Assembly: GCF_000733475.1 (NCBI RefSeq)
Contig: NZ_JPFK01000005.1
Coordinates: 310,001 to 374,000, forward strand
DNA length: 64,000 bases
Direction: 5' to 3'
Source: Mangrovimonas yunxiaonensis
GTDB taxonomy: Bacteria > Bacteroidota > Bacteroidia > Flavobacteriales > Flavobacteriaceae
Position numbers and translations under genes: made by a program. The notes below the pieces were generated by a model. The model worked only from the letters and a program-made list of their open reading frames with translations, was not told the origin of the DNA and searched no databases. The stretch's first letter is position 1. Each line of letters begins with the position of its first letter. This document shows positions 7,315 through 61,371 of the stretch, in pieces.

Positions 7315-7426
7315 GCGCTTCAAAACCATTTAGAAGCTGGTTTAAGGCCGCTATGGTTACCCAAGATTAAAGAAAACATAACTTTAATCACAGTTATAAG
7401 TGGTATATTTACATTTTATTGTAGCT

Positions 7427-9418: not shown

Positions 9419-10417
9419 TTAAAAGGGTTGTTGCCACTCAAGCCCGCTAATATCTGTAAGTTTTAGGGTGAAATGGTCGTTTTTAGGAAGGCTCTCCTTT
9501 AAGGGCAGCTGTAAAGTGGCCTTGGCACCCAGAGGGATAATAAGACTGTGTGCGCCGGGTTTTACCTTGGCAACATAGTAGTTTTTAATGTATTCTGAAG
9601 GGAGGTTAGCAAGATCATTCCCTTTTAATTCAAAAACAACCCGATGGTTGCTATCAAGCACCTGCAAGCCTATTAAAAATGACCCATACACGTCTACACC
9701 TTCGGTTCTGTAAACGTCAAAATAGAGGGTGTTGTTTGTTATGGTTGCATTAGAGAGTTCTAATTTGGGCTTTACCGACTTGTTATGAAGCGTGCCATAA
9801 ACACCACCGTGAAACACTTGGTTGGTGTAAAGCGTAAGCCCTAAGATTAAAAGGGAACCTGTTAAAACTATTTTAGGAAGCAGTTGCGCTTTAATAGGAA
9901 GTTCCCCAGAGCCCAACCAAGCAAACCACGATGTTTTTGTGATGCTGTGGTTGCGATTTAATAACAGGTTGTCTACAGAGTATTTCCCGCTTCCTGTAAA
10001 GAAAAGCACAAAACCGGTTGCTACGCCTAAAACGCCAATTTGCCACTCGTCCAAGCAGGTTGTTCCTATCCATCCAGAGCCCAGTAATATGCCCATAGCT
10101 AGAGAGAATACACCAAAGCTCATAAGCCTAGTGAATAGCCCAAACATGATAAACAACCCAACAATACCTTCAACAATAGTAAAAGAAGCCATACTCCACC
10201 AAAGTGCTTCGGGGTGGGTAACTAGGTATTCTATAATGGGTTTAATGCCTAGGGCATTGGGCAGGAAATGATTGAATTTCTCCCCAATATAACCGGCCGC
10301 ATCAGGATCGAGTTTATTGGCTAAAAATAACCGCCTCCAAAAGGCAGAAAAATAGGTCCAGCCTACAACCAGACGTAGTGCAAGGGCAAAAAGCCCCGAA
10401 TCGTTTTTATAATGCAT
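9419..10417 (-). CDS. DoxD-DoxA fusion: thiosulfate:quinone oxidoreductase-like membrane protein
   Basis: A 332-residue protein. Residues about 1-175 are a four-helix DoxX/DoxD-type membrane domain (LRLVVGWTYFSAFWRRL, GLFIMFGLFTRL, FTGSGKYSVDN). After another membrane segment near 190-205, residues about 210-332 form a beta-rich domain matching the DoxA small subunit (FHGGVYGTLHNKSV, then a strand-rich tail). In Acidianus, separate DoxD and DoxA form thiosulfate:quinone oxidoreductase; here both are on one chain. Actual use of thiosulfate is inference. A small FSPCKVRN protein is encoded 82 bases upstream on the same strand and probably shares the transcript. Confidence 0.8.
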   Translation of the reverse strand: MHYKNDSGLFALALRLVVGWTYFSAFWRRLFLANKLDPDAAGYIGEKFNHFLPNALGIKPIIEYLVTHPEALWWSMASFTIVEGIVGLFIMFGLFTRLMSFGVFSLAMGILLGSGWIGTTCLDEWQIGVLGVATGFVLFFTGSGKYSVDNLLLNRNHSITKTSWFAWLGSGELPIKAQLLPKIVLTGSLLILGLTLYTNQVFHGGVYGTLHNKSVKPKLELSNATITNNTLYFDVYRTEGVDVYGSFLIGLQVLDSNHRVVFELKGNDLANLPSEYIKNYYVAKVKPGAHSLIIPLGAKATLQLPLKESLPKNDHFTLKLTDISGLEWQQPF

Positions 10418-45555: not shown

Positions 45556-46956
45556 ATGAATGCTATTTTAAATAAAAGCTTAATCGTGGTTGTCATGGCC
45601 ACCACCCTACAAAGTTGTTTTGTAGCCAAGGATTATGTGCGTCCGGAGTTGGAAGAAACAGAGCACTTATACCGTACCGATAATTTGCCACAAGACAGCT
45701 TGTCTATGGCAGATGTATCGTGGAAAGACATGTTTACCGACACGTATTTAAAGCAATATATTGAAGAAGGCCTACAGCATAACCTAGACATTCGCGTTGC
45801 CTTACAGCAAATGGCGGCAGCCGAAGCTTATATGAAACAAGGCAAAGCGGGCTATTTGCCCAGCATAGGGATTGGCGCAACAGCGACACACCAGGAGTTG
45901 GCAAAAAACAGTCAGTTTGGAGCGTTTTTCGACGGAAGCCTGCAGCAATTCGAGCTTACCGGAAACCTGTCTTGGGAAGCCGATATTTGGGGTAAAATAA
46001 GAAGCACAAAAAGAGCCGGTGAAGCTAGCTACTTGCAAAGTGTAGCCGCCCATCAAGCGGTAAAAACCCAATTGGTTTCGGCCATTGCTTCAACCTATTA
46101 CCAACTGGTAGCCTTAGATGCTCAATTAGACATCACCAAAAAAACCATTGCTACCAGAGACAGTAGTGTGGTTACTATTAAAGCCTTAAAGGATGCCGGG
46201 AATGTAACCCAAGTGGCGGTAGATCAAAACATAGCGCAATACAATAACGCCAAAGCCTTAAAGGTAGAATTGGAAGCTGCTATTTTTAAAACTGAAAACA
46301 CATTAAATCTGCTTTTAGGCAGACCTGCCGTGGCTATTGAGCGTAGCACACTGGACGGCCAGCAGTTAAACGCCGAGGTTAAATTGGGCGTTCCTACGAC
46401 CTTGCTACGAAACAGACCCGATGTTATGGCAGCCGAATACGGATTGATCAATGCCTTCGAGATGACCAATGTCACACGAAGTCAATTCTACCCGTCGTTA
46501 ACCTTAACGGCCAACGGTGGTTTTCAAAGTTTGGAATTGGACGAACTGTTAAGTGCCAATTCGTTATTTGCCAATATAGTTGGCGGTTTAACACAGCCTA
46601 TTTTTAATAAGCGTGCCATAAAAACCCAACACGAAGTTGCCCAAGCACAGCAGGAACAAGCGCTGCTAAGCTTTAAGAAAACATTGCTTACGGCCGGTAA
46701 CGAGGTGTCTAATGCACTGTTTGATTACAAGGCCGAAACCGAAAAATTTGAATACAGGGAGAAAGAAGTTGAAGCCTTGCGTAAGGCCGAAGCCAATTCT
46801 GAGGAACTGCTTAAAAACGGCTATGCCAATTACTTGGATTTGTTAACAGCAAGACAAAGTGCGTTAAGCGCCGAATTGAATATGATTAACAACAAATTAA
46901 ACCAGTTGTTAAGCATCGTGAATTTATACGAAGCCCTTGGTGGCGGATGGCAATAA
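45556..46956 (+). CDS. Outer-membrane efflux channel (TolC/OprM type)
   Basis: A 466-residue outer-membrane factor, lipoprotein form (LQSC near residue 21), with the two internal repeats of the family (LEEGLQHNLDIRVALQQMAAAEAYMKQGKAGYLPSIGIGA; RNRPDVMAAEYGLINAFEMTNVTRSQFYPSLTLTANGG is spread across the second). A LLGRPA motif and YLDLLTARQSALSAEL near the end are also typical of NodT-type members. It starts 2 bases after the permease stop and completes the tripartite pump. Confidence 0.94.
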   Translation: MNAILNKSLIVVVMATTLQSCFVAKDYVRPELEETEHLYRTDNLPQDSLSMADVSWKDMFTDTYLKQYIEEGLQHNLDIRVALQQMAAAEAYMKQGKAGYLPSIGIGATATHQELAKNSQFGAFFDGSLQQFELTGNLSWEADIWGKIRSTKRAGEASYLQSVAAHQAVKTQLVSAIASTYYQLVALDAQLDITKKTIATRDSSVVTIKALKDAGNVTQVAVDQNIAQYNNAKALKVELEAAIFKTENTLNLLLGRPAVAIERSTLDGQQLNAEVKLGVPTTLLRNRPDVMAAEYGLINAFEMTNVTRSQFYPSLTLTANGGFQSLELDELLSANSLFANIVGGLTQPIFNKRAIKTQHEVAQAQQEQALLSFKKTLLTAGNEVSNALFDYKAETEKFEYREKEVEALRKAEANSEELLKNGYANYLDLLTARQSALSAELNMINNKLNQLLSIVNLYEALGGGWQ

Positions 46957-46985
46957 AATGAAGAAGAAAAGTAAATAAATTTAAT

Positions 46986-47027
46986 AGAGCAGGAGTGTCG
47001 TTTTTTGATACTTCTGCTTTATTTTTA
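46986..47027 (+). terminator. Terminator after the efflux operon
   Basis: AGCAGGAGTGTC and GATACTTCTGCT pair with two mismatches, followed by a T-rich run. The ORF of the next gene extends back into this hairpin (to 47005), which favours the later start at 47047. Confidence 0.7.
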
Positions 47028-47046
47028 TAATAAACTAATTAGAAGA

Positions 47047-47637
47047 ATGACGAGTAAGCGTGACGTTTTGGAGTGTTCTGTTTCCAACTTCACCAAGTTT
47101 GGAAGCAAACGTTTTACTATGGATGAGCTTGCTTCGGAGTTGGGAATTTCTAAAAAAACCATTTATAAATACTTCGATAGTAAAGAGGCTTTGGTTATAG
47201 CAAGCGTACAGTACTTAATAGACGATTACAACCAGACATTAGAAGCTATGTTGCGTGGGCAAGACGATCCCATTGCACGCATAATTATAATGTACGAAAA
47301 AGCATTTGAACGGTTAAAGTACTTTAAGCCTTCTTTTATTTTTGGACTTAGAAAGTACTATCCGACAGCCAATAAGGTGTTTGATGATTTTCGGGATGAT
47401 TTTGTTAGGGTAAGGGTGTATAACTTGCTAAAAGAGGCTCAAGAAAGTGGGATTTTAATGGCAGGTGTTAACCTAAACTTATTCTGCGACCTGTATTTTA
47501 AGCGGTTTGAGGAAATTGCCTTTACAAATAACAATCTGTTCGATATTTACCCGAGCAATACCTTACTAAACCACACCATTATTTATAGTCTTAGAGGAAT
47601 TACCAAGCCTTCTTATGTGTTTCCTTTGGCGGAATAA
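47047..47637 (+). CDS. TetR/AcrR family regulator downstream of the efflux operon
   Basis: A 196-residue regulator with the TetR helix-turn-helix (FTMDELASELGISKKTIYKYFDSKEAL, about residues 25-50) and a helical ligand-binding half. Presence next to an RND pump suggests it senses a pump substrate, but it is beyond the pump terminator and no TetR operator is evident. The start at 47047 (MTSKRDVLEC) is preferred over 47005, which lies in a terminator. Its last 71 bases, including the stop, are repeated exactly at 58765-58835. Confidence 0.88.
   Translation: MTSKRDVLECSVSNFTKFGSKRFTMDELASELGISKKTIYKYFDSKEALVIASVQYLIDDYNQTLEAMLRGQDDPIARIIIMYEKAFERLKYFKPSFIFGLRKYYPTANKVFDDFRDDFVRVRVYNLLKEAQESGILMAGVNLNLFCDLYFKRFEEIAFTNNNLFDIYPSNTLLNHTIIYSLRGITKPSYVFPLAE
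47567..47637 (+). repeat. 71-bp direct repeat, left copy (end of tetR)
   Basis: Bases from the codons before HTIIYSLRG to the stop of tetR. Identical over 71 bases to 58765-58835 in the same orientation, with different flanks on both sides. The 11.1-kb stretch between copies contains all of the giant-protein block. Confidence 0.95.
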
Positions 47638-47669
47638 GAACTTATATTGGGGCTAGATAGGAGTTATAA

Positions 47670-47700
47670 AAAAGGTGCTATAATTTATAGCACCTTTTCT
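47670..47700. terminator. Bidirectional terminator between tetR and the giant gene
   Basis: AAAAGGTGCTATAA and TTATAGCACCTTTT form a 14-bp stem with a single-base centre, next to A- and T-rich runs. Confidence 0.88.
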
Positions 47701-47711
47701 AAATAAAATGA

Positions 47712-50700
47712 CTATTTCACAAGAAGTTCTGTTTTGGTTTGACCTGCGATGGTTATTTGTATTAAATAAATTCCTGCGGACAAATCTTCAGTGTTTGAAC
47801 TGATTATGCTTCCAGAATCTTCCATGAAATCAACTTCTGTGGGATTTAAATTAAAATCAAATAATTGAACGTCAACAGTTGATAAATCGATAGCGTATGA
47901 AAAATTAAGGTGTATAGCTTCAGCTATCGGTACTGGATAAATGGTGACTTCAAGATTCTGTCTGAATTTTAATACAGCCGAACCGGCACTGTCTTCTACC
48001 GTAATTTCAATAGTATCTGTGGCCGTATTTCCACTACTATCAGTTGCTGTGAGAGTAACCGTATAAACCCCAATAGATGTAAATATGGATTGGTTAATAT
48101 CCAATGAAGCAACTTCGCAATTGTCTGAGGAGTTTCTATGAACATCATCAGTAGTAATGTTGTAAGCCGACATGCCATTAAGATCTACCACAAAATCATT
48201 TAGGGTTGATACCGATGGATTCAAATTATCTACAACATAAAGATTGACCATTTGTACTGCCGTATTTCCGGCTTGATCGGTTACCATTAACTCTAGCTGA
48301 TTTAAACCCAAGTTACCGCAGTTAAAATTTGATTGAGAAATTTCAAAAATCAAATCTGTCGAAGCTGTGATGTTGTCATAAGAACCATTATCAAACTCAT
48401 TAGCTACTACCGAAGCCTTTCCTTGGTTGTTTAAATAGATGGTGACATCATTCGAAATAATGGTTGGATCTAAGCAATCTGGGTCGGTATAATATGCGGT
48501 CCAGTCATCCTTAATCCAGCCTATTGGAATAGCGTCCGGATTGTCAACGCCTATACAAAATAAATCGGGATTGTTTAGGGTATTCAAATCGTTTAATGAA
48601 TTAAGGTCTCTTACATCAAGGGTATTTAATAAATTGGATTCGGCATTTAACAATTCCAAATTATTAAAGTTTTCAACGATCAAGTTTACTAACTGATTGT
48701 CGCTAACATTTAAACTTATTAATGAATTCCCACTATTCAAACTGTTTAATTCCTCTAAGTTGTTAAATGACACATCCAAATTTTCCAGAGACGTATTTTC
48801 TGTTAAATTGACTGTGTTTAGAAGGTTGTTTGAAATGTTCAGGTGTGTAAGATTTATAAACCCTTCTATCCCTTTAAGGTCTGATATGGACTTATTGCTG
48901 ACGTCTAATACCAAAGGGGTTTCGGCATCGGTTCTTAAAATATTTCCAGTTAAACCATTTGAATCAATGTTCAAGTCAATTAAGGCCTGTTCAAAATTTG
49001 GATCTGGAATCAAGACCACGTCGGGTTCATTCCCACAATCCAAGCTTAATGTTACTCCAAGATCCATGAGCCAACCATTATAAGGGGCTTGTGTGTTATC
49101 ATTGGAATCTGCCATGATACACGTTAATAAATTGTTGGTAGCGTCAAACTGTAGCAGATTGACGTTATTACCATTTTGAACATTTAAGATTTCCAGTTGG
49201 TTATTATAAACATAAAGCGATACTAATTGCGAATTGGATGAGAGATCCATGTCATCAATCATATTGTGGTGAACTGAAAGCAGTTGAATGTTTGGAATAT
49301 TTCCGGTATTCAACCTGGTTAAGTTGTTATCATCCAACAATAGAGATTCTAAATTAGGATACAAAGTTGGATTGAAATTGGATAATCCTGTGCTGGATAA
49401 GTCTAAATGCAATAGCGAAGGACTTCCAGTAGCAGCTGTTATCAGTTTTAATCCATCATTATAGCTGGCGTTGAGGTATTCCAAAGATTGATTAACTGAT
49501 ATGTCCAATTGATCAATATTATTTTGGCCAGCGGCTAAATTCAAAAGGTCAACATTTGATAAAATGTCTAATTCTTCCAAGTTGTTCTGATGGACATATA
49601 AGTACATTAGATTGACATTATTGGACAAGTTCAAAGTTGCAAGATTATTATTGCCAATATGCAAGGTTTCTAATAAGGGATTTCCGGTTGTGTCTAAGTT
49701 GGTCAATTGATTTTCTCTTGCATCCAATGATACCAAGTTTGCTAAATCAGATACATCTAGTTGGGTCAATTGATTTTGCCATAGTAGGAGTGTATCAACT
49801 TGATTTAATCCTGCAAGATTAATAGAGCTCAGTTGGTTTCCTCCTGCGGAGACACGTTCCATTAATGTATTAGATGATAAATCCAACTCGGTTAATTGAT
49901 TATAATACACCCATATTTTTTCTAATAATACATTTTGTGACACATCAATACTGGTAAGCTGGTTTTCCCCTGCTTGCAACTCTGTAATATTTACAAACGC
50001 TTCAATACCTGTTAAATCACTAATATTTTTCCCACTTATACCTAAATGACCAGTAGTAGCTTCTGCATCATTACGCAATAACCACGTATTCACTATACCG
50101 TCACTATCAATACCCAAGTCTACTAAAGCCTGTTCAAAGTTAGGGTCAGGAATATAGACATGCTCCGGTTTGGTATTGCAGTCACTGCTGTAAATGGCAT
50201 GGGCATCTTTTACCCAATCTGAAGGAATATTTTCAATCACATCTTCATCTGCTTGAATACATTCTAAATTTGGGTTTCCATCAGCCGAGAAAGAAGCGCT
50301 TGTCCAATTAGGTGGTGTAAAATTAATGTTGTTGCCATTGGCAATATTCAAGTTTGTTAATTGGTTATAACCACATTGAAGGAATGTTAAGTTTGTATTG
50401 TAAGAGACATCCAAACTTGTAAGGTGGTTACCAAGTAAAATAAGCTCTTTTAAATTCGGATTATTTGAAACATTCAAGTTGGTAAGTTGATTTGACCATA
50501 AATGCAGAAACTCCAAATTCGAATTTAAATCAACATTGAGCGTTTGTATATTACATTGATTAGCATATATATCTTTTAATAAAAGATTTGAACTGAAATC
50601 TAAATGAGCAATCTCATTCCCATTTAAGTTAATCCCTACTAAGTTTACAAAAGCTTCTATTCCTGTTAAATCAATAATCTTACCATTTACATTAGGTAAG

Positions 50701-53700
50701 CTAGGGTTTGTTAAAGGATCATTTAATCCTAACCCCACAACACCGTTAACATCTTGTCTTAAAACAGAAGTATTGACAACCCCATCGCTATCTATTCCTA
50801 AATCAATAAGTGCCTGCTCAAAATTTGGATCAGGTATATAAACAAAGTCGCCACAGTCTTCACTAAAGGTTTTCCCTGAATTAATCATAGCTTGAGAAAT
50901 TACAGGGTCGGCATTGATACAAGTAAGGTTTGGTGTGTTGAAAACTTGGAAAAATGTAATATTAGAATTATTACCATTTCTTATATCCAAATGCGATAAA
51001 TTTAAGTTATTATTGATATTAATGAACTCTAAGTTTATATTATTAGAGAGTTGTAAGGATGTTATATTGTTGTTGGTTGCAAAAAACATTCTTAAACTCA
51101 CGTTGTTTGAAGCATCAATATTTGATAAATTATTATTATCCAAGCCTATTAAATCTAGGTTGATGTTTTGTGATAAATCTATTGTTGCAACTTGATTTTC
51201 ATATAAATAAAGAGTTTCCAGTAAACTATTTTGAGTCAAATTGACATCATTAATATGGCCATAATTGCAGCTTAAATAAATTAATTGAGTATTACCCGAT
51301 AAATCTAATGTTTCAATTTCATTATAATCACAAGTTAAACTAGTAAGATTTATAAAAGCTTCAATTCCTGTTAGATCATAAATCTTTTCTGTTACATTTT
51401 GAATTAACGGATTCCCTTGAAAGGTAAATGTTACAAACAATGGATTGTTTAAATTTAATTCTACTACCGCTTCCGCATCACTCCTTAACAAACCCTGGTT
51501 TACAACACCATCACTGTCAATCCCCAAATCAATCAATGCCTGTTCAAAGTTGGGGTCTGGAATATAGACAAAGTCTCCACAGTCTTCACTAAAGGTTTTG
51601 CCTGAATTAATCATCGCTTGAGAAATTACAGGGTCTGCATTAATACAAGTAAGGTTTGGTGTGTTAGTTACATCAAAATAGCTGATACTTGTATTATAAC
51701 CGTTCCTTAAATCTAAGTGTGAAAGATTAAGATTATTATGCAAAATTAAAAACAGCATTCCTGAATTACCACTCAAATTCAATGATTCTATTGTAGATTC
51801 TGTAATCCAAACTTGATTAAGTAAAGGAATAGTCCCAAAGTTCACATGTTGTAAAGTTGAATTGTTTACAGCAAAAAACTTATACAGATTTACGTTATTA
51901 CTCAAATCAAGAGTTGAAATAGGTAAATTACCTATTGACAATTGATTAAGGTTAATGTTTAATGAAACATCTAGCGTTGTCATTAGGTTTGATCCACAAG
52001 ACAAATAAGTAAGACTTGTATTTTGCGATAAGTCAATACTGGTCAAATTATTCCCACCAATTATTAAATCATTAAGATTAGTAAAAGCTTCAATACCAGT
52101 TAAATCAGAAATATTATTATTGCTAACATTTAACTGAGCTGTGACTGCTTCTGCATCACTTCTTAACAAACTCTGATTTACAACTCCATCACTGTCTATT
52201 CCTAAATCAATCAATGCTTGTTCAAAGTTAGGGTCTGGGATATAAACAAAGTCGCCACAGTCTTCACTAAAGGTTTTACCTGAATTAATCATCGCTTGAG
52301 AAATTACAGGGTCTGCATTGATACAATTAAGGTTTGGTGTGTTTGATGCTATAAAATAATTCATGTTTGCATTGTTCCCATTCCTTAAATCTAAATGACT
52401 TAAGTTTAGATTATTCTGAATTTGTAAATATTCCAAACTTGAATTGTTAGATAAGTCAAGAGCCACTAAATCATTATCAGAAACATCTATACCTAAAAGA
52501 TTTATGTTTTGTGATAAGTCTAGATTAGTAAGTCCATTATTTTTAACATACAGCTCCTGTAAATTGATATTTTGTGATAAATCAATTGAGGTAACACTGG
52601 TATAGGCTATGTCTAATTGAATCAGTTGAGCATAATTAGTTACATCTAAATCAGTAATAGCATTATTTCTCAAGTTGATACGCTCTATAATATTAGCATT
52701 TGAAAATGAAATGCTACTTATAGAATTATTGTCTGCATATAAATCTTTAAAATTATGGTTTGATGATAAATCTAAAGATGTCAATTGATTATCCCAAATA
52801 CCCAACAAAATTAACTCAGTATTAGAACTTAAATCTATTGAACTAATTTGATTATACTGACAACGAAGATCTTTTAAATTTATAAAGGCTTCTATTCCAG
52901 ATAAATCTGAAATGTTTTTATTACTTACATTTAAATACTCCGTTACTAATTCGGCATCACTTTTTAATAAACTCTGGTTTACTACCCCATCACTATCTAT
53001 ACCCAGATCAATCAAGGCCTGCTCAAAATTAGAATCTGGAATTTCAACTAATTCTTCAATTGAGTACGTTAATGTGGTGAAATTGGCCGTTACTTTATAA
53101 TATCCTGCTGTTACAGGGATATTAACTCCGTGTAAATCTAAGATACCATCATTATCAAAGTTGACTTCTCCATCACCATAATTCCAACTCCAGTCATTAT
53201 TTAACCTGAATTTAAATTCTCCATCTATCAAGTGCACATTAGCCACCCAATTGCTGGTTGTTTCATTATACTCCATAGGAAAGTCAGGACTACTTCCCCA
53301 GTTATTATAGGCTGATCCTACAATGCCCCATATCTCTTGATAAGGTTCAATTGAATATGTAAGATCATTTAAGTTGAGGATTACTTTGTATGTTCCCTGC
53401 GTAACAGGAATATCATTGGCATTTGGTGGCGCATCTAGAATACCATCACCTTCAAAATCGCCGTAATTTCCAACGTTCCAATCATTATTAGCTCTAAATT
53501 TGATGTAGCCGTCTGTAAAGTCGGTAATGATTTCAAAGACATTGTTGATTTCGGTAGTATTAAACTGAACGTCTGGCCCTATCCAGCCATTAGGAGTGGC
53601 ATTTCCTACTATTCCCCAAGTAATTTCAACAACTTCATCTATACCATCGCAATCTTCATCAATGCCATTATTTGGTATTTCAGTAGCTCCAGGATTAATG

Positions 53701-56700
53701 CCATTGTTCGAATCATCACAATCAGTATTATCAGATACATAGCCTGCAGGTTGTTCATTAGCAGTTTGCGTAGAGGCTAAATCACCAAAGGTATCGCCAT
53801 CCGTATCTGCATACCAAGTTTTAAGATCAAAGCCATCACAGTCTTCGTCTATTTCATTATCTGGTATTTCAGTAGCTCCAGGATAAATACCATTGTTTGT
53901 ATCATCGCAATCTGTATTATCTGAAACATAGCCTGCTGGTTGTTCATTGGCTGTTTGCGTTGAAGCTAAATCCCCAAAGGTGTCACCATCCGTATCTGCA
54001 TACCATGTTTTAAGGTCAAAGCCATCACAGTCTTCGTCTATTCCATTATCTGGTGTTTCAATAGCTCCAGGATAGATGGTATCATTCGAATCATCACAGT
54101 CTGTGTTATCAGACACATAACCTGCTGGTTGTTGATTAGCAGTTTGCGATGTTGCTAAATCCCCAAAGGTATCGCCATCAGTATCTGCATACCAAGTTTT
54201 ATGATCAAAGCCATCACAGTCTTCGTCTATTCCATTATCTGGTGTTTCAATAGCTCCAGGATAAATACCATTGTTCGAATCATCACAATCTGTGTTGTCA
54301 GATACATAGCCTGCTGGTTGTTCATTAGCAGTTTGTGATGTTGCTAAATCCCCAAAGGTGTCACCATCAACATCTGCATACCAAGTTTTAAGATCAAAAC
54401 CATCACAGTCTTCGTCTACTCCATTATCTGGTATCTCACTAGCACCTGGATAGATGGCACTATTTGAATCATCACAATCGGTATTGTTGTTTACGTAGCC
54501 TGTTGGTTGCTCATTGGCTATTATGACAATACTTGGATTACCATATAAATCATTATCTGTATCAGCAAACCAGTTTTTTAAATCAAAACCGTCACAGTCT
54601 TCATCAATATCATTACCAGGAACTTCAGTTGCTCCGGGGTTAATCGCTGGATTAGCATCGTTACAATCTACATCATTTGTGTAACCATCCCCATCAGCAT
54701 CCACTAAGGTATTATCTAGTGTAGCAGGATTACAGTCGTCATCCTTTCCATTGTTTTCTATTTCAACAGCATCTGGATTAACTGTAGCATCAGTATCATC
54801 ACAGTCTGTGTTATCAGACACATAACCTGTTGGTTGTTCGTTGGCTGTTTGCGTAGAGGCTAAATCCCCAAAGGTATCTCCATCCGTATCTGCATACCAT
54901 GTTTTAAGATCAAAGCCATCACAGTCTTCGTCTATTTCATTATCTGGTATTTCAGTAGCTCCAGGATAAATACCATTGTTTGTATCATCGCAATCTGTAT
55001 TATCTGAAACATAGCCTGCTGGTTGTTCATTGGCTGTTTGCGTTGAAGCTAAATCCCCAAAGGTGTCACCATCCGTATCTGCATACCATGTTTTAAGATC
55101 AAAGCCATCACAGTCTTCGTCTATTCCATTATCTGGTGTTTCACTAGCTCCAGGATAAATACCATTGTTCGAATCATCACAGTCTGTGTTGTCAGACACA
55201 TAGCCTGCTGGTTGTTCATTGGCTGTTTGCGTTGAAGCTAAATCACCAAAGGTGTCACCATCCGTATCGGCGTACCATGTTTTAAGGTCAAAACCATCAC
55301 AGTCTTCGTCTATTCCATTATCTAGTGTTTCAGTAGCTCCAGGATAAATACCATTGTTTGTATCATCACAATCTGTGTTATCAATTACATAACCAGTAGG
55401 TTGTGTTTCTGCTAATTGACTAACATTTGGATTTCCAAATCCATCATCATCAGCATCTTGATACCATGTTGTATCTGTACCACCACCGTTATAGGCTAAT
55501 ACGGTTACTACCACATCTTGAGTGCTGATGTTTCCTAAGGCATCTGTAGCTGTAATGGTTACTTGATTTTCTCCAACATCAGCAGTAGTGTAATTGTATT
55601 GAGGTTGCGCCAATTCAACAGAAACCAATTCACAATCATCATAAGTACCATTATCCACATCAACTAATGTGAGTAGGCCTTCGCCAGTTTCATCTAATTG
55701 AACAGTAATGCTTGGATTTACAACTATAGTTGGTCCTCCAGTGTCATAAACATCAATATCTTCTAATAACTTAATTTGCGAATAATCGCCACCTGCATTT
55801 TTTAGACGTAGGGAAAGGTCATGAATATCACAGAGTTCATTATCTGTAGGAATAGAAATAGTGTATTCATCAGGGTTTCCTGTTGGTGTTAAACTTACTA
55901 AGGCTTCTTCATCAGGGCCAAAGGTTCCATTGAAAAGGTACTCTACTCCTACTAACTGCTCTAAATCTCCCGTTTCAAAGAGTGTATTATCAATAACATA
56001 GAATGTTTTACGGTCAAACATGCTCCACGAACCGTCCAAGTTTTGAGCACGAATTACTAGTTGATGATATCCGCCTTCCAAACTTCCCAAGGGAATAATT
56101 AAGTTATCTTGAATTTCACTAGGGCTACCCGAGATACTAATAGCTGTGCCATTACCTAAACCAGGATCTGTATCAAACCAATATTCCATTGTCGCAAGAT
56201 TTGAAACAGCCTCACTCCCTGAAAAAGGCTCGCTGACATAAAATGTATTTAAATCGTAAAGACTCCAAATGCCTTCAGTATTTTGAACTCTTATACCAAT
56301 TTTGTGGAAGCCTTGTTCTAAACTTCCCAAAGGAATAATATAACTTTGGTTTAACTCGGTTGTTGCTCCAGAAACTGACAAAGGAATACCGTTGCCCATA
56401 CCAGGGTCCGTATCAAACCAGTACTCAGCGGCTGATAAACTTATAATTGGATCACTACCGGAGATTGGCTCACTGATATAGAATGTATTCTGGTCGTACA
56501 TGCTCCAAACACCTTCGGTATTTTGTACTCTTAGTCCTAATTTATGAAATCCTTGATCTAAATTACCTAAAGGCAAAACAAAGCTTTCAGTTAAGTTTTC
56601 AGATGAAGTTGAAATAGATAATGCGGTTCCATTACCAAAGCCTGGATCTGTATCAAACCAGTACTCAGCTGAAGCTAGATTAGCCACTGATTCACTACCT

Positions 56701-57038
56701 GATAGTGGCTCACTAATATAAAAGGTAACGGCTTTGTAAAGACTTAAAGTATCTAAATCGTTCTTGGCTCGTATTGTGAGTTTATGAAAACCCGATTCCA
56801 TTCCTGAAAGTGAAATGTTCAAATCTTGGGTGATTTCACCCGTGTTGGTATTTGCTGCAACTATGGTTCCATTACCTATACCTGGATCGTTACCAAAAAA
56901 GTACTCAAAAGATTCTATGCTTTGCGCCTGTAATCCTACAGTGCTTATCAAAAATAAGCCAAGCAATAAAATATTTTTCTTGATACTAGGAAATAGGTTT
57001 AAAACCATGGTTGAGCGTATTTTTCTTAACGCTCTCAT
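47712..57038 (-). CDS. Giant modular T9SS surface protein (EYxF repeats, MopE motifs, SusE/F-like domains, LRR modules)
   Basis: A 3108-residue exported protein with signal peptide (to about residue 39, GLQAQ). In order: about five repeats of roughly 80 residues headed by EYWFDTDPGxGNG (near 44, 124, 204, 283 and 362); a HYR-like segment; ten MopE-type motifs with DCDD and DEDCDG (about 520-1135); two SusE/F-like beta domains with WGIVG starts (about 1135-1330); six leucine-rich modules, each headed by PNFEQALIDLGID (1330-2850); two HYR-like domains; T9SS type A sorting domain (from about 3035, ending ELLVK). Expected at the cell surface, binding metal and polymer or protein; partner unknown. 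Its start is 5 bases after the beta-helix gene; a second Met at 57008 begins a more usual signal peptide. Confidence 0.88.
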   Translation of the reverse strand: MRALRKIRSTMVLNLFPSIKKNILLLGLFLISTVGLQAQSIESFEYFFGNDPGIGNGTIVAANTNTGEITQDLNISLSGMESGFHKLTIRAKNDLDTLSLYKAVTFYISEPLSGSESVANLASAEYWFDTDPGFGNGTALSISTSSENLTESFVLPLGNLDQGFHKLGLRVQNTEGVWSMYDQNTFYISEPISGSDPIISLSAAEYWFDTDPGMGNGIPLSVSGATTELNQSYIIPLGSLEQGFHKIGIRVQNTEGIWSLYDLNTFYVSEPFSGSEAVSNLATMEYWFDTDPGLGNGTAISISGSPSEIQDNLIIPLGSLEGGYHQLVIRAQNLDGSWSMFDRKTFYVIDNTLFETGDLEQLVGVEYLFNGTFGPDEEALVSLTPTGNPDEYTISIPTDNELCDIHDLSLRLKNAGGDYSQIKLLEDIDVYDTGGPTIVVNPSITVQLDETGEGLLTLVDVDNGTYDDCELVSVELAQPQYNYTTADVGENQVTITATDALGNISTQDVVVTVLAYNGGGTDTTWYQDADDDGFGNPNVSQLAETQPTGYVIDNTDCDDTNNGIYPGATETLDNGIDEDCDGFDLKTWYADTDGDTFGDLASTQTANEQPAGYVSDNTDCDDSNNGIYPGASETPDNGIDEDCDGFDLKTWYADTDGDTFGDLASTQTANEQPAGYVSDNTDCDDTNNGIYPGATEIPDNEIDEDCDGFDLKTWYADTDGDTFGDLASTQTANEQPTGYVSDNTDCDDTDATVNPDAVEIENNGKDDDCNPATLDNTLVDADGDGYTNDVDCNDANPAINPGATEVPGNDIDEDCDGFDLKNWFADTDNDLYGNPSIVIIANEQPTGYVNNNTDCDDSNSAIYPGASEIPDNGVDEDCDGFDLKTWYADVDGDTFGDLATSQTANEQPAGYVSDNTDCDDSNNGIYPGAIETPDNGIDEDCDGFDHKTWYADTDGDTFGDLATSQTANQQPAGYVSDNTDCDDSNDTIYPGAIETPDNGIDEDCDGFDLKTWYADTDGDTFGDLASTQTANEQPAGYVSDNTDCDDTNNGIYPGATEIPDNEIDEDCDGFDLKTWYADTDGDTFGDLASTQTANEQPAGYVSDNTDCDDSNNGINPGATEIPNNGIDEDCDGIDEVVEITWGIVGNATPNGWIGPDVQFNTTEINNVFEIITDFTDGYIKFRANNDWNVGNYGDFEGDGILDAPPNANDIPVTQGTYKVILNLNDLTYSIEPYQEIWGIVGSAYNNWGSSPDFPMEYNETTSNWVANVHLIDGEFKFRLNNDWSWNYGDGEVNFDNDGILDLHGVNIPVTAGYYKVTANFTTLTYSIEELVEIPDSNFEQALIDLGIDSDGVVNQSLLKSDAELVTEYLNVSNKNISDLSGIEAFINLKDLRCQYNQISSIDLSSNTELILLGIWDNQLTSLDLSSNHNFKDLYADNNSISSISFSNANIIERINLRNNAITDLDVTNYAQLIQLDIAYTSVTSIDLSQNINLQELYVKNNGLTNLDLSQNINLLGIDVSDNDLVALDLSNNSSLEYLQIQNNLNLSHLDLRNGNNANMNYFIASNTPNLNCINADPVISQAMINSGKTFSEDCGDFVYIPDPNFEQALIDLGIDSDGVVNQSLLRSDAEAVTAQLNVSNNNISDLTGIEAFTNLNDLIIGGNNLTSIDLSQNTSLTYLSCGSNLMTTLDVSLNINLNQLSIGNLPISTLDLSNNVNLYKFFAVNNSTLQHVNFGTIPLLNQVWITESTIESLNLSGNSGMLFLILHNNLNLSHLDLRNGYNTSISYFDVTNTPNLTCINADPVISQAMINSGKTFSEDCGDFVYIPDPNFEQALIDLGIDSDGVVNQGLLRSDAEAVVELNLNNPLFVTFTFQGNPLIQNVTEKIYDLTGIEAFINLTSLTCDYNEIETLDLSGNTQLIYLSCNYGHINDVNLTQNSLLETLYLYENQVATIDLSQNINLDLIGLDNNNLSNIDASNNVSLRMFFATNNNITSLQLSNNINLEFININNNLNLSHLDIRNGNNSNITFFQVFNTPNLTCINADPVISQAMINSGKTFSEDCGDFVYIPDPNFEQALIDLGIDSDGVVNTSVLRQDVNGVVGLGLNDPLTNPSLPNVNGKIIDLTGIEAFVNLVGINLNGNEIAHLDFSSNLLLKDIYANQCNIQTLNVDLNSNLEFLHLWSNQLTNLNVSNNPNLKELILLGNHLTSLDVSYNTNLTFLQCGYNQLTNLNIANGNNINFTPPNWTSASFSADGNPNLECIQADEDVIENIPSDWVKDAHAIYSSDCNTKPEHVYIPDPNFEQALVDLGIDSDGIVNTWLLRNDAEATTGHLGISGKNISDLTGIEAFVNITELQAGENQLTSIDVSQNVLLEKIWVYYNQLTELDLSSNTLMERVSAGGNQLSSINLAGLNQVDTLLLWQNQLTQLDVSDLANLVSLDARENQLTNLDTTGNPLLETLHIGNNNLATLNLSNNVNLMYLYVHQNNLEELDILSNVDLLNLAAGQNNIDQLDISVNQSLEYLNASYNDGLKLITAATGSPSLLHLDLSSTGLSNFNPTLYPNLESLLLDDNNLTRLNTGNIPNIQLLSVHHNMIDDMDLSSNSQLVSLYVYNNQLEILNVQNGNNVNLLQFDATNNLLTCIMADSNDNTQAPYNGWLMDLGVTLSLDCGNEPDVVLIPDPNFEQALIDLNIDSNGLTGNILRTDAETPLVLDVSNKSISDLKGIEGFINLTHLNISNNLLNTVNLTENTSLENLDVSFNNLEELNSLNSGNSLISLNVSDNQLVNLIVENFNNLELLNAESNLLNTLDVRDLNSLNDLNTLNNPDLFCIGVDNPDAIPIGWIKDDWTAYYTDPDCLDPTIISNDVTIYLNNQGKASVVANEFDNGSYDNITASTDLIFEISQSNFNCGNLGLNQLELMVTDQAGNTAVQMVNLYVVDNLNPSVSTLNDFVVDLNGMSAYNITTDDVHRNSSDNCEVASLDINQSIFTSIGVYTVTLTATDSSGNTATDTIEITVEDSAGSAVLKFRQNLEVTIYPVPIAEAIHLNFSYAIDLSTVDVQLFDFNLNPTEVDFMEDSGSIISSNTEDLSAGIYLIQITIAGQTKTELLVK
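53640..55475 (-). repeat. Ten MopE-type coding repeats of about 189 bp
   Basis: Each encodes WYADTDGDTFGD, ANEQPAGYVSDNTDCDD and a NGIDEDCDGFD end; one unit is shortened. 53818-54014 and 54901-55097 are identical over 197 bases at a distance of 1083 bp (361 codons), showing recent duplication or gene conversion. Confidence 0.9.
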
Positions 57039-57043
57039 AGTTT

Positions 57044-58123
57044 CTAGTGTGCTTTGGCTTCAACAGTTACATTAATATTACCATTTTTTGGCACAGCACC
57101 AGTATAGGTTACAATATCAAAAGTGGGAATCCCTCTAGGGTTACCTAAGTACTTAAAATTAAACCCATTGTTAAATATTCCTAACTCTGAACCACCGCCA
57201 CCACCAGTAAGTGCTGGAGAACTGGCTTGAAGGGTAAGATCATCTTCTGGTCGGGCTGCTGGATTGTAAGTTGAAGTGCCAGCAAAACTGGTACTTACTG
57301 TAGAATCTACATTAGTAAACAATGGGTCTGTATTTATTAAGCTTCCATTATGTTCAAAAGTACCAGTTCCTGTATGATTTAAAGTAAAGTCGCCTGTACC
57401 ATAATTATATATAAGATTGTTTGAGATATTCCAGTCACCAACACCTGAAAAGGTTATAGTTCTATTGTTTGCGCTATTATTGATAAACATATTGTTATAA
57501 ATAATGGCAGTTTGAGCAGCTGCATTATTAGAAAAACTCATGTTAGAGGTATGCTTGAAAATATTATTAGCTACAATTATGTTTGTTGGATTATCTATAC
57601 TTCCTCCAGAGCGTATAATATTGTTTGATATCAAAACATTTGTTGCTGTAGCATATTGATTGAATGAATTAAAATAACAACCTCTAACCGTAACATCATC
57701 AGCTATACCACCAGCATATGCTAAATAAAGTGTTGAAAATTTACACTCATAAATTTTGGTATTTGAAGTATTTGAACCACTATATGAAGCATAACAACTT
57801 GAGAAACTCAATCCTTTAATTGTAACATTATCTGCCTGAACAATAACACTTGTCAAGTTTGAAACCTCACTAGGTTCACTGTGCGAACGCCCTATAATAG
57901 TCAATGGTTTGTTAATGGTAGCACTTCCATAGCTAGTAGCCGAGGGTTGTACATAAATAATATCCCCATCACTAGCAGCATCTATGGCTGCTTGAATTGT
58001 AGTATATTGCGTGGTAGATTGTGGCCCGTTGTCTATAATGATAGTGTTTTGGGCTTGGGTTGCTGTCACGAATAAGAGTAAAACAGCAATTGTTTTTAAA
58101 AGGTTGGGTCGTAACGTTTTCAT
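57044..58123 (-). CDS. Secreted right-handed beta-helix protein
   Basis: A 359-residue protein with signal peptide (about 1-24, LLLFVTATQAQ). Residues 25-260 are built of short repeated coils (TIQAAIDAASDGDIIYV, NVTIKGLSFSSC, NVLISNNIIRSGG, IIVANNIFKH, NLIYNYGTG), the pattern of pectate-lyase-like or parallel beta-helix proteins. Catalytic residues of a lyase are not apparent, so binding is as likely as cleavage. There is no sorting domain at the C-terminus, which instead has a Gly-rich segment and a short beta tail. It is the first gene of a two-gene operon with the giant protein. Confidence 0.82.
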   Translation of the reverse strand: MKTLRPNLLKTIAVLLLFVTATQAQNTIIIDNGPQSTTQYTTIQAAIDAASDGDIIYVQPSATSYGSATINKPLTIIGRSHSEPSEVSNLTSVIVQADNVTIKGLSFSSCYASYSGSNTSNTKIYECKFSTLYLAYAGGIADDVTVRGCYFNSFNQYATATNVLISNNIIRSGGSIDNPTNIIVANNIFKHTSNMSFSNNAAAQTAIIYNNMFINNSANNRTITFSGVGDWNISNNLIYNYGTGDFTLNHTGTGTFEHNGSLINTDPLFTNVDSTVSTSFAGTSTYNPAARPEDDLTLQASSPALTGGGGGSELGIFNNGFNFKYLGNPRGIPTFDIVTYTGAVPKNGNINVTVEAKAH

Positions 58124-58490
58124 TGTATATTAAATTATTGGTTAATAGCCAGATTTATAAAAAGCATTGCGCTTTTGATACCATGAAGGAGTAGGGAAAA
58201 TACGTGCGAATTGAGGAGTCCTATTCTTGTTAAATAGTATGTTGTAAACTTAGATGCTATAGGCTATTAAAGAAATACCTGATGCTGGGTATTTTTTAAG
58301 AAGAGAAACTGCACACATGCATGGACAGTTTTAATTCTCAACATTCCTCTCAGAGTTTATGATTAATAGCGTTTATAAATTTATTCTATAATTATTAGTA
58401 AAACAATACTCAATTTGAGTATTTTTTAATCACTTTCATAGAAGCAAGGGTTGCTTCTTGTTTGTGTGTAGAAAAAAGATTGTTGAATAA
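58124..58490. other. Gap upstream of the beta-helix gene
   Basis: No coding frame is visible. It must hold the promoter of the minus-strand beta-helix/giant operon, but I found no good TAnnTTTG box in that orientation. Composition is AT-rich. Confidence 0.45.
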
Positions 58491-58751
58491 AGTGAAAATA
58501 GGTCAAAATTTCATTGCAAACTGAAAGAAAGAAATGAAGCTTCAACAAATGGGATTGAATGTGTCTTTACGAAAAGGGAGCAGTAAATTTTAAAACAAAT
58601 AGCTCAAGGAAAAAAAGCAAAAGACATAGCTAAAGAATTGTATATATCCACCCTTACTGTCAATACTCATAAACGGAATATTTTAAAGAAATTCCATTGC
58701 AAAAACATTTCACATTTGGCGGCTGTTTGTGTTAAAGAAGGTCTTATTTGA
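58491..58751 (+). pseudogene. LuxR-type helix-turn-helix remnant with in-frame stop
   Basis: The plus-strand frame encodes FTKREQ, then TAA at 58584-58586, then ILKQIAQGKKAKDIAKELYI, STLTVNTHKRNIL and a C-terminal HLAAVCVKEGLI followed by TGA. Joined, this is the GerE/LuxR DNA-binding domain with its conserved glutamate codon (GAA) turned into TAA. The frame goes back only to a stop before 58491 and there is no start, so the receiver or sensor part is missing. It ends 13 bases before the right copy of the 71-bp repeat. Confidence 0.8.
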
Positions 58752-58764
58752 AACCAACTCCTTT

Positions 58765-58835
58765 TAAACCACACCATTATTTATAGTCTTAGAGGAATTA
58801 CCAAGCCTTCTTATGTGTTTCCTTTGGCGGAATAA
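58765..58835 (+). repeat. 71-bp direct repeat, right copy
   Basis: Identical to the end of tetR at 47567-47637, including its stop codon, but with no tetR upstream. Directly followed by a TAnnTTTG box for the next gene. Confidence 0.95.
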
Positions 58836-58837
58836 AT

Positions 58838-58845
58838 TATTTTTG
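58838..58845 (+). promoter_or_regulatory. Minus-7 box of the 131-residue gene
   Basis: TATTTTTG is a full TAnnTTTG match 43 bases before the start codon. Its minus-33 region would fall in the right repeat copy, so this promoter probably existed when tetR was the direct neighbour. Confidence 0.5.
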
Positions 58846-58888
58846 CCGTATGAAAGGCTCATGAACAAGAGCTGTAAACCCACCGAAA

Positions 58889-59284
58889 ATGAAAAAAGAC
58901 ATACAAATTCCCAAAGTTGAAGGTGTTTATATGGCGGCCATAAACCAATTTAACGACACCCACAGAACGCACGATTGGAACGTTTACTTAATAAACGACA
59001 ACGATTACGCTTTAGAAACGGTTTTAATCGTTTCTTTAGGATATTCGGCAGACAAAAAAACGTCTGTTATGCGCCATAAGTTAGACGTTTTACCAGCTAA
59101 AAGCTACGCAAAAGTCGAGTTTTTACAGGAAGATGTCTTGGCTTTAACCAATGAGTTTAAAGTAACTTTTTTTAAGGCGAATACCATGCTTGATAAAACG
59201 TACACCTTCGCCGAGAACACCATTAATAAGGACGCCTTACAGGCTGTTCCGGTTATGAACGAGCAAGGTGTTTTACTCGGGTAG
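58889..59284 (+). CDS. Conserved flavobacterial protein of unknown function
   Basis: A 131-residue protein with alternating strand pattern: IQIPKVEGVYMAAINQF, DWNVYLINDNDYALETVLIVSLGY, SVMRHKLDVLPAKSYAKVEFLQEDVLALTNEFKVTFF and a short tail. I recall close relatives in most Flavobacteriia, sometimes wrongly named as a phenylalanyl-tRNA synthetase fragment. No aminoacyl-tRNA synthetase motif is present. It converges on gpsA with one base between stops. Confidence 0.75.
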   Translation: MKKDIQIPKVEGVYMAAINQFNDTHRTHDWNVYLINDNDYALETVLIVSLGYSADKKTSVMRHKLDVLPAKSYAKVEFLQEDVLALTNEFKVTFFKANTMLDKTYTFAENTINKDALQAVPVMNEQGVLLG

Positions 59285-59285
59285 T

Positions 59286-60287
59286 TTAATCTAGTTTTTC
59301 GGTTAATTTCTTAAATACCTTTTTCGGGTTTTTGCCTTCGTATAGCACATCGTAAACCGCATCGATAATAGGAATTTTGGTCTTTTTGCTACTTTGGGCG
59401 TTTAGTAAATGGGCGCTTTTGGTGGCGTAATAGCCTTCGGCAACCATATTCATCTCCATTTGAGCCGATTTTACCGTATACCCTTTGCCTATCATGTTGC
59501 CAAACATACGATTTCGTGAAAACAGCGAATATCCGGTAACCAGCAAATCGCCAAGGTAGGCCGAGTTGTTAATGTTGCGTTTCATTTTATGGCGCTTTTT
59601 TATAAACCGTTTCATTTCGCGAATGGCATTGCTCATTAACACGCTCTGAAAATTGTCGCCATACCCCAAACCATGCGCAATACCAGCGGCAATGGCATAA
59701 ATGTTTTTCAGCATAACAGCGTATTCGGTCCCGATGACATCGTCGCTAATTTTGGTTTGAATGTAATCGCTAGACAATGTTTTGGCTACTTCTTTGGCTT
59801 TGTTGGCATCGGCACAAGAAATGGTTAGATAGGACAAACGTTCTAAGGCAACCTCCTCGGCATGGCAAGGGCCTGCAATAACAACAATGTTACTAAAAGG
59901 AATGTTGTATTCGCTGTGAAAATGTTCTCCTACCAGTTTTCCAGATTCTGGAATAATACCTTTAACGGCCGAAACAAGAATTTTTTGAGAAATATCGACG
60001 GTAAGTTTTTCGAGTTCAGAGTGCATAAATGCCGAAGGCACAACAAAAATAAGCACATCGGCCCAATGAGCAATCTCGTTAATATCGTTGCTGAGCTTAA
60101 GTTGTGAGGGATCAAACTCTACCGAACTTAAGTAGTTTGGGTTGTGGTCTTCTTTTAAGAGATGCTCCTTTATATAAGCACTGCGCATGTACCAGCCCAC
60201 TTCATTTAAGTTTTCGCACAACATTTTTACAATTGCGGTAGCCCAGCTGCCAGCACCAAAAACAGCATATTTTAAAGGTGTTTCCAT
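59286..60287 (-). CDS. gpsA: NAD(P)-dependent glycerol-3-phosphate dehydrogenase
   Basis: A 333-residue enzyme reducing dihydroxyacetone phosphate to sn-glycerol 3-phosphate for phospholipid synthesis. The Rossmann motif is VFGAGSWATAI near residue 10, and VIAGPCHAEE, the catalytic lysine in GTEYAVMLKNIYAIAAGIAHGLGYGDN and the YLGDLLVTGYSLFSRN motif follow. The branched FSRN block and the final KKVFKKLTEKL tail are as usual. Confidence 0.95.
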   Translation of the reverse strand: METPLKYAVFGAGSWATAIVKMLCENLNEVGWYMRSAYIKEHLLKEDHNPNYLSSVEFDPSQLKLSNDINEIAHWADVLIFVVPSAFMHSELEKLTVDISQKILVSAVKGIIPESGKLVGEHFHSEYNIPFSNIVVIAGPCHAEEVALERLSYLTISCADANKAKEVAKTLSSDYIQTKISDDVIGTEYAVMLKNIYAIAAGIAHGLGYGDNFQSVLMSNAIREMKRFIKKRHKMKRNINNSAYLGDLLVTGYSLFSRNRMFGNMIGKGYTVKSAQMEMNMVAEGYYATKSAHLLNAQSSKKTKIPIIDAVYDVLYEGKNPKKVFKKLTEKLD

Positions 60288-60420
60288 CTGTGGATTAAAA
60301 AATTAGTTCGTTCAAAAGTACGCAAAATATCACTGTTTGTAAAGCCTGTTGTTACAAGCTTTTTAATTTTTGGCATGCGTTTTGAAAAGGTTATGAAAGT
60401 AACCCTAAAATTTATGGCTT

Positions 60421-61371
60421 ATGAGACCTTTAAAACTACTTTTAGCATTCACGCTAACCGCCTTTTTATTTACATCGTGTATTTACGAAGAAGCAGTTGT
60501 TTACGATACTTATAATCCAACCCCAACAACACCCATCGTAACAGCAGACCAATTGTTGCATTCTTACGAACTGTGGTATGTAGATATTAACCAAACCATA
60601 GGGTATGGCGAGACGCCTTTTATGGAAATAGCTTTTACCTTATCGTTTAGAAATGGGGTGCTCTATGCCAACAACAATTTAGTAGGCTTTGAAAGCCAAG
60701 GGAACGGTTTTGGTATTCCGGTAGGTGATTACGATGCTTATAACATGATTTTAGATGTGTACCACGATATAGATGGCTACCAAACATTTGATGTGTACGA
60801 AGTAGATTACAATACCATAGAATTGTACAACCCGTATACAGATACATCGTATTTTTTACACGGTTACCAACGTCATACGTTCGATTACGACTTTGTGTTT
60901 TACGATAACATTCACTATTTCCTACAAGAATACGAGGCTTGGGAAAAAACCTATACAAGCAGTTATGGGGCACTAAACGAGTTTGATAACGAAAACTATT
61001 TGCAGTTTTTGGCTGGAGGCAACGACTCCGAATTTAGAAGCTCTCAAGACCCTGCAGGGTTAAACCCAGATTATCTGTATTGGGATTACACAGGAGTGTA
61101 TGGCGTAGGCAATGTAGCAAACAACATGTATGTAAAAACATTAACGCTAGATTACGATTATTTTAACAATGAATATTTTGAGTTAAGTGTTGTAAATGAC
61201 CAACGTATCGAGCTGTACCACCCATCATCTGGAACACTATACGAGTTTACAGGAAGAGGCTACATACAATACATGAAAAATGCTGCGGGCAAACAAACCC
61301 AACAGCCTAAAAAACGTAAACAGAAGACAGAGAAAAAAGCAAACCCGAGAGAAAACACAAGAAAAGCATAG
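60421..61371 (+). CDS. Flavobacterial lipoprotein of unknown function upstream of the nadD region
   Basis: A 316-residue lipoprotein (lipobox FTSC near residue 20). The mature chain is rich in Tyr, Asp and Asn with a repeated theme: HSYELWYVDINQT, NNLVGFESQGNGFG, YFLHGYQRHTF, FQEYEAWEKTY, NEYFELSVVNDQRIELYHPSSGT. The last 25 residues are strongly basic (many K, R and Q). I recall homologues mislabelled as nicotinic acid mononucleotide adenylyltransferase, an artefact of the neighbouring nadD; none of its motifs are present. Likely outer-membrane attached. Confidence 0.75.
   Translation: MRPLKLLLAFTLTAFLFTSCIYEEAVVYDTYNPTPTTPIVTADQLLHSYELWYVDINQTIGYGETPFMEIAFTLSFRNGVLYANNNLVGFESQGNGFGIPVGDYDAYNMILDVYHDIDGYQTFDVYEVDYNTIELYNPYTDTSYFLHGYQRHTFDYDFVFYDNIHYFLQEYEAWEKTYTSSYGALNEFDNENYLQFLAGGNDSEFRSSQDPAGLNPDYLYWDYTGVYGVGNVANNMYVKTLTLDYDYFNNEYFELSVVNDQRIELYHPSSGTLYEFTGRGYIQYMKNAAGKQTQQPKKRKQKTEKKANPRENTRKA

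Follow-up and report, generated by a model that had tools for sequence, protein, structure and literature searches.

Integrative and mobilizable elements (IMEs) and cis-mobilizable elements (CIMEs) comprise integrative elements lying in the 3′ ends of genes and their integrase-less derivatives, and a gene 3′ end, a direct repeat and a restored target are the marks of site-specific elements. The cassettes of minimal mobile elements contain no mobility genes. Such elements have been defined in Neisseria, where the portion of the published definition used here includes no duplicated gene end (PMC3082526). Homology-facilitated illegitimate recombination (HFIR) is a process described in Acinetobacter, Pseudomonas stutzeri and Streptococcus pneumoniae, all naturally competent, and it has been invoked for the effector–immunity arrays of type VI secretion systems and for Rhs loci, at which old 3′ parts are left behind new inserts (PMC5361080, PMC2884548). 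In the present study, a block lying between two copies of the 3′ end of a tetR family regulator gene was analyzed in 64,000 nucleotides of Mangrovimonas yunxiaonensis DNA (assembly GCF_000733475.1, contig NZ_JPFK01000005.1, positions 310,001 to 374,000; hereafter the window, with all coordinates counted from its first base unless a locus is named). The block is an insertion between tetR and a conserved gene for a 131-aa protein (p131), and we incline, without great assurance, to HFIR at a site resembling a minimal mobile element as its explanation.

The last 71 bp of tetR, with the stop codon, recurred as a direct repeat at the far end of the block (Table 1). In the assembled sequence, all 71 of the 71 bp were identical, and 11,127 bp separated the two copies. 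The identity ended exactly at the tetR stop, the left copy being followed by G and the right copy by A. The right copy began 13 bp past the stop of a C-terminal LuxR fragment, with no tetR upstream. An earlier note on this DNA had reported this exact repeat, with a second copy not preceded by tetR, and the comparison agreed with it in both respects and in the positions. With up to three mismatches allowed, the window contained the two copies only (mean of 100 dinucleotide shuffles, 0.00). Moreover, this part of tetR was found at two places only in the whole 2.67-Mb genome, both of them the repeat copies, and two further matches to tetR fell in a different part of the gene. The 71-mer had no match in phage and plasmid records, and a 28-base part of it had no exact match in viral contigs. 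The terminal inverted repeats of an insertion sequence or composite transposon were not found either, with no inverted pair of at least 25 nt (seed 14) in positions 46000–61000, a search in which smaller pairs were not sought. Outside the window, the region C5:1-27000 of the same genome (L086, L087) carries many small open reading frames (ORFs), each trailed by similar repeats of about 125–150 bp, and resembles a large cassette array of the integron type, located where a contig ends. The 71-mer showed no similarity to this repeat-rich array, integron-type by its look, over C5:1-28000, and in this comparison it was not recognized as an attC-like repeat of an integron cassette.

The genome (G000) was compared with three congeners (G001, G002 and G003) and with genomes of other genera (G016, G031, G004 and G014). 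In G003, a single tetR end was followed by 14 bp and then by p131, with no block. The earlier note had proposed searching relatives for such an intact, single-copy junction, and it had placed the former promoter context of the 131-residue gene at the right copy; the first bases 3′ of that copy aligned with the tetR–p131 junction of G003. In G001 and G002, the gap between tetR and p131 was occupied by a 787-aa S9 peptidase gene (Pfam call made on the G002 copy) without a repeat, and in G016 by a gene for a 238-aa AhpC/TSA protein. In G031, G004 and G014, p131 was not found within the 18–19 kb fetched. A TolC-like gene lay directly 5′ of tetR in G002, G016, G031, G004 and G014, and extra ORFs lay between the two genes in G001 and G003. 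The three congeners are without the block at this junction, which bears out the view of the earlier note that an insertion had spared a complete tetR. Among the genomes compared, the block at this place is specific to this lineage. By these alignments, the right copy preserves the older junction, and the tetR–p131 gap takes different cargo in different lineages.

The locus resembles minimal mobile elements in that the space between one pair of conserved genes is filled by whole-gene cassettes that differ, namely nothing in G003, the S9 peptidase in G001 and G002, the AhpC/TSA protein in G016, and a giant protein with a beta-helix-like protein in M. yunxiaonensis. In addition, no mobility genes were found among the scanned ORFs of the block. 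It differs in that the comparison was made across species and genera, not strains, in that recombination in the flanks is deduced, and in the duplicated gene end.

Two further observations concern the left side of the locus. The gap between the TolC-like gene and tetR is a second variable gap beside the junction studied. It held two ORFs (96 and 271 aa) in G001 (L038, 2874–4036) and one 271-aa ORF in G003 (L035, 3048–3863), and it had no extra genes in G000 and G002; the 271-aa product presumably resembles a universal stress protein. Furthermore, the tetR proteins of G001 (L038, 4055–4642) and G002 (L037, 2789–3409) were much alike in the C-terminal part and different at the N-terminus. This mosaic pattern suggests that recombination took place inside the gene. 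When five genes were compared at the DNA level, only tetR placed G000 nearer to G003 than to G001 and G002, which may be a hint of allele exchange at tetR.

Scars of the same type were found at other, unrelated genes. At lysM in G001, 59-bp copies (97% identical) surrounded 1.85 kb with two ORFs. The same junction had 50 bp and no insert in G000, a sulfatase-like gene in G002 and 1.7 kb of other DNA in G003, and no repeat was found in the latter two. At a mutS-like gene in G001, 84-bp copies (82%) surrounded a single gene of 190 aa. This site was present as a single copy with no insert in G000 and G002 (query pieces overlapping by 84 and 85 bp, respectively, on the subject), and in G003 a related gene lay directly behind mutS, where a second copy was not found. 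At katG in G094, 97-bp copies of the katG end (85%) surrounded a beta-helix and giant-like pair together with two regulator genes; this locus matches, by gene order, that of Paucihalobacter ruber CWB-1 (L203), outside the genus. The identity of the copies stopped at the stop codon for tetR, lysM and katG and 3 bp past it for the mutS-like gene, as is expected of alleles whose likeness extends no further than the end of the gene. The coding differences between the copies were 15/81 for the mutS-like gene, 15/97 for katG, 2/59 for lysM and 0/71 for tetR. Pooled over the four pairs, 20 of the 32 differences were at third codon positions (p 0.0007 against 1/3), as would be expected if the diverged pairs were alleles that had diverged as working genes before being joined. 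This excess argues against a simple local duplication for the diverged pairs. Moreover, the mean longest shared word among the four duplicated 3′ ends was 6.33, compared with 6.53 in random gene ends; no motif beyond chance was thus shared, which argues against a common attachment site.

The frequency of such scars was surveyed with a simple ORF caller on ORFs of at least 100 aa, 1635 of which were tested in 1.974 Mb sampled from four genomes of the genus, with the array C5:1-27000 excluded. The survey returned 12 C-terminal rows and one N-terminal row. Four of the 12 were on the same strand, downstream, outside ORFs and reached the C-terminus (tetR, lysM, the mutS-like gene and an ambiguous case in G002); the sole N-terminal row was 7 bp downstream of its gene, and there were no upstream rows. 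The count of four 3′ against zero 5′ scars is suggestive only (one-sided 1/16). No clean scar was found when 331 more ORFs, from 400 kb of G000, were examined; in 11 fetched loci with 173 ORFs, the katG scar was found and the lysM scar was recovered a second time. By another method, conserved junctions that differ in length by about the size of a gene were collected in 107 rows, partly shared between genomes and with deletions included. Eight of them had any terminal repeat and two had clear 3′-end copies (tetR and lysM); the mutS-like site was not called by this method. The gene-3′-end scar is thus a minority outcome in the sampled stretches.

Several candidates were rejected. The 68-bp copies (97%) around a 145-aa ORF at C5:175854-176588 of G000 have the look of a repeat from between genes, not of a gene end, and the match at 679478 of G003 (66%) lies inside a coding gene. 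The 143-aa gene of G002 (73 bp, 94%), which accounts for two of the eight flagged rows, belongs to a series of small genes, some of them related to each other, and may itself be a decayed paralogue, so that it was kept as ambiguous. The match at 505763 of G003 (27 aa, 56%) stops before the C-terminus, and that at C3:187958-188131 of G000 (59 aa, 44%) lies 11 bp behind its gene with no insert. Two small matches of 27 and 33 bp (85%) were also seen in G001.

The recurring scars suggest a joining of foreign DNA that relied on homology at one side only and did not involve a dedicated mobile element. The tetR copies are identical, and the mechanism at tetR is therefore read from the sister cases. 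Linear donor DNA carrying a tetR end, a terminator and the cargo would have entered the cell and recombined by homology in tetR or 5′ of it. The other end of the donor, which had no homology, would have been joined illegitimately 71 bp before the old tetR stop. The new allele would then complete tetR, and the last 71 bp of the old allele, with the old p131 junction, would remain as a scar. Products of this kind would be retained by selection, since neither tetR nor the leader of the gene behind it is lost. What we infer here is that homology acted on one side only, that the right joint was illegitimate, that selection took part, and how the DNA was taken up. The genome encodes ComEC, and natural transformation has been reported in some Flavobacteriaceae (PMC7965970). 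The likeness to HFIR is that homology serves to join the foreign DNA at one end and that the other end is joined illegitimately. It differs from the described cases in that the tetR anchor is kept whole and a short tail is orphaned, that the cargo is no toxin–immunity module, and that the event is read from sequence and was not observed in the laboratory. Among the options offered by the earlier note, movement by recombination was the best fit.

Several points weigh against this explanation. The identical tetR copies fail to show two alleles. Under this model, they imply a donor that was a very close strain and already had the cargo next to its tetR, so that the original capture would have happened elsewhere. 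The RND (resistance–nodulation–division) pump gene, compared as protein over partial lengths, was about equally near to G003 (92.5%) and to G001 and G002 (91.8% and 92.1%); the tetR discordance is therefore close to other noise. With looser scoring, the lysM match extended 31 bp beyond the stop, at 82% overall. The left copy at the mutS-like gene was unusually near to G002 (96%) and the right copy less so (83%), so that either could be the resident one. The third-position excess is pooled (0/0, 2/2, 9/15 and 9/15) over sites that are not independent. ComEC is no proof of competence and was present in 10 of the 14 control genomes. In addition, Flavobacterium johnsoniae was reported not to be competent (PMC7965970).

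HFIR should be compared first with the integration of a circle, which is possible but doubtful. A circle carrying the cargo plus a single tetR 3′ end would have formed in another strain, where repeats of this kind recombined, and would have entered tetR through one crossover inside the 71 bp. The resulting geometry is identical, the perfect identity of the tetR copies is accounted for, and the block is predicted to be able to leave by recombination between the repeats. On the other hand, an earlier event is required to place a tetR end beside the cargo, and the 3–18% divergence of the other pairs is left unexplained. A length of 71 bp is also short for efficient RecA exchange, which counts against integration of a circle.

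Site-specific integration is unlikely. It would involve an integrase acting in trans on the tetR 3′ end as attB, the block being a decayed or integrase-less (CIME-like) element. As in IMEs and CIMEs, direct repeats made of a gene 3′ end stand at both ends of the block and the target gene is restored; in addition, the related cargo pair of G094 also lies between a complete katG and its 3′ fragment, in the same orientation. However, no recombinase or relaxase was found among the scanned ORFs of the block (the two long ORFs and the LuxR fragment; overlapping ORFs of 86–128 aa on the opposite strand were unscanned), as the earlier note had said of integrase, transposase and relaxase. The genome has six PF00589 matches, and the nearest tyrosine recombinase on the contig is about 258 kb off. 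A CIME is without recombinase by definition, so that only the test for a shared site bears on it, and the four duplicated ends had no common motif. Moreover, only one of seven beta-helix loci from another collection, that of katG, had a clear copy of the coding end of a flanking gene in the available DNA, and the scars at lysM and the mutS-like gene hold different cargo. Unlike IMEs and CIMEs, the scars thus have no common site, unrelated targets and mostly unrelated cargo. The reading of the gene 3′ end as an attachment site, advanced in the earlier note, was not supported by these results.

Local duplication of the tetR end by slippage or template switching, followed later by insertion of the cargo between the copies, is improbable to much the same degree. 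Identical tetR copies would also be expected from it, but two rare events would be needed at one place, and the third-position bias of the differences at lysM, the mutS-like gene and katG is unlike that of a neutral local copy.

The distribution of the cargo was examined in a sample of 299 family genomes from a larger group. Relatives of the beta-helix protein were found in 25 of them, the genome studied included, and G001 and G002 had no match. At the four nearest loci read, the beta-helix gene was directly followed by one that encodes the repeats seen in the N-terminal part of the giant protein, so that the two form a conserved pair; regulator genes, presumably of the two-component type, lay close by. 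In that other collection, the beta-helix module lay near the same left-hand neighbor gene at four of seven loci (L200, L201, L202 and L204, from Winogradskyella, Lacinutrix and an uncultured relative); in G000 and G094 it is not beside that gene. At L200, from the uncultured relative, 47-bp copies (7286–7332 and 9777–9823) bracket one extra gene. This 47-bp repeat is the untranslated, terminator-like end of a regulator gene, and L202 has one copy and no extra gene. It is quite improbable that the module is an integrase-less mobile unit that docks repeatedly, in one orientation, behind unrelated gene 3′ ends (tetR here, katG in Paucihalobacter ruber) and copies the gene end by an undescribed mechanism. 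That the right copy is an assembly artefact is hardly credible, as it runs into sequence aligning with the tetR–p131 junction of G003, the site is inside a 708-kb contig, and the scar type also occurs in the one-contig genome G001.

The features of the locus are collected in Table 1. The block contents named in the earlier note (a terminator, a 3108-residue protein, a beta-helix protein and a broken LuxR regulator) were all recovered, as a hairpin, two ORFs and a LuxR fragment with an in-frame stop immediately upstream. The giant ORF, described there as a type IX secretion system (T9SS) protein, stood, and its T9SS tail was seen only below the curated cut-offs (19.4 against 27 bits and 18.3 against 23 bits). 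The 75-nt segment 47638–47712 folded at −19.7 kcal/mol (z −3.7). The ATG at 47047 is a possible start of tetR in place of the TTG at 47005. The name TolC-like is our assumption for the gene at the left, and the 359-aa protein is taken to have a beta-helix fold from the look of its sequence. Nothing useful was obtained from Rfam over 46800–59600 or from PHROGs for the beta-helix protein and p131, and the search of plasmid records with the beta-helix protein was fruitless. Elsewhere in the window, a 489-aa ORF (1096–2565, minus strand) has internal DNA repeats in steps of 168 bp that are about 87–89% identical.

Table 1. Features of the tetR–p131 locus of M. yunxiaonensis, in window coordinates.
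Feature	Position	Strand	Basis or remark
TolC-like outer membrane efflux gene	45556..46956	+	Conserved left neighbor of tetR
tetR family regulator, complete	47005..47637	+	PF00440, 42.9 bits against a cut-off of 24
Left 71-bp copy, tetR 3′ end with stop	47567..47637	+	Repeat search
Terminator-like hairpin between convergent tetR and giant ORF	47670..47698		Fold of 47638–47712
3108-aa secreted-type repeat protein	47712..57038	-	MopE-type metal-binding repeats, leucine-rich repeats, sub-threshold T9SS tail
359-aa beta-helix-like protein	57044..58123	-	In other genera, paired with the N-terminal part of the giant protein
C-terminal LuxR (GerE) fragment	58587..58751	+	PF00196, 53.5 bits against a cut-off of 23.5
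Right 71-bp copy, orphan tetR 3′ end	58765..58835	+	Repeat and own-genome search
53-bp leader of the 131-aa gene	58836..58888	+	First bases align with the G003 tetR–p131 gap
131-aa conserved gene (p131), right neighbor of the site	58889..59284	+	Found in all four genomes of the genus (G000 to G003)

The block is real, is explained to a fair degree and is of a known kind; worth keeping are the finding that the scar recurs and its value as a marker. Genes acquired in a one-sided way leave a scar that can be read, in the form of short duplicated gene ends. Should this pattern hold, single-gene and multi-gene additions to Flavobacteriaceae genomes that lack the marks of mobile elements could be counted and polarized, and the spread of giant secreted-type proteins of unassigned role could be traced as well.

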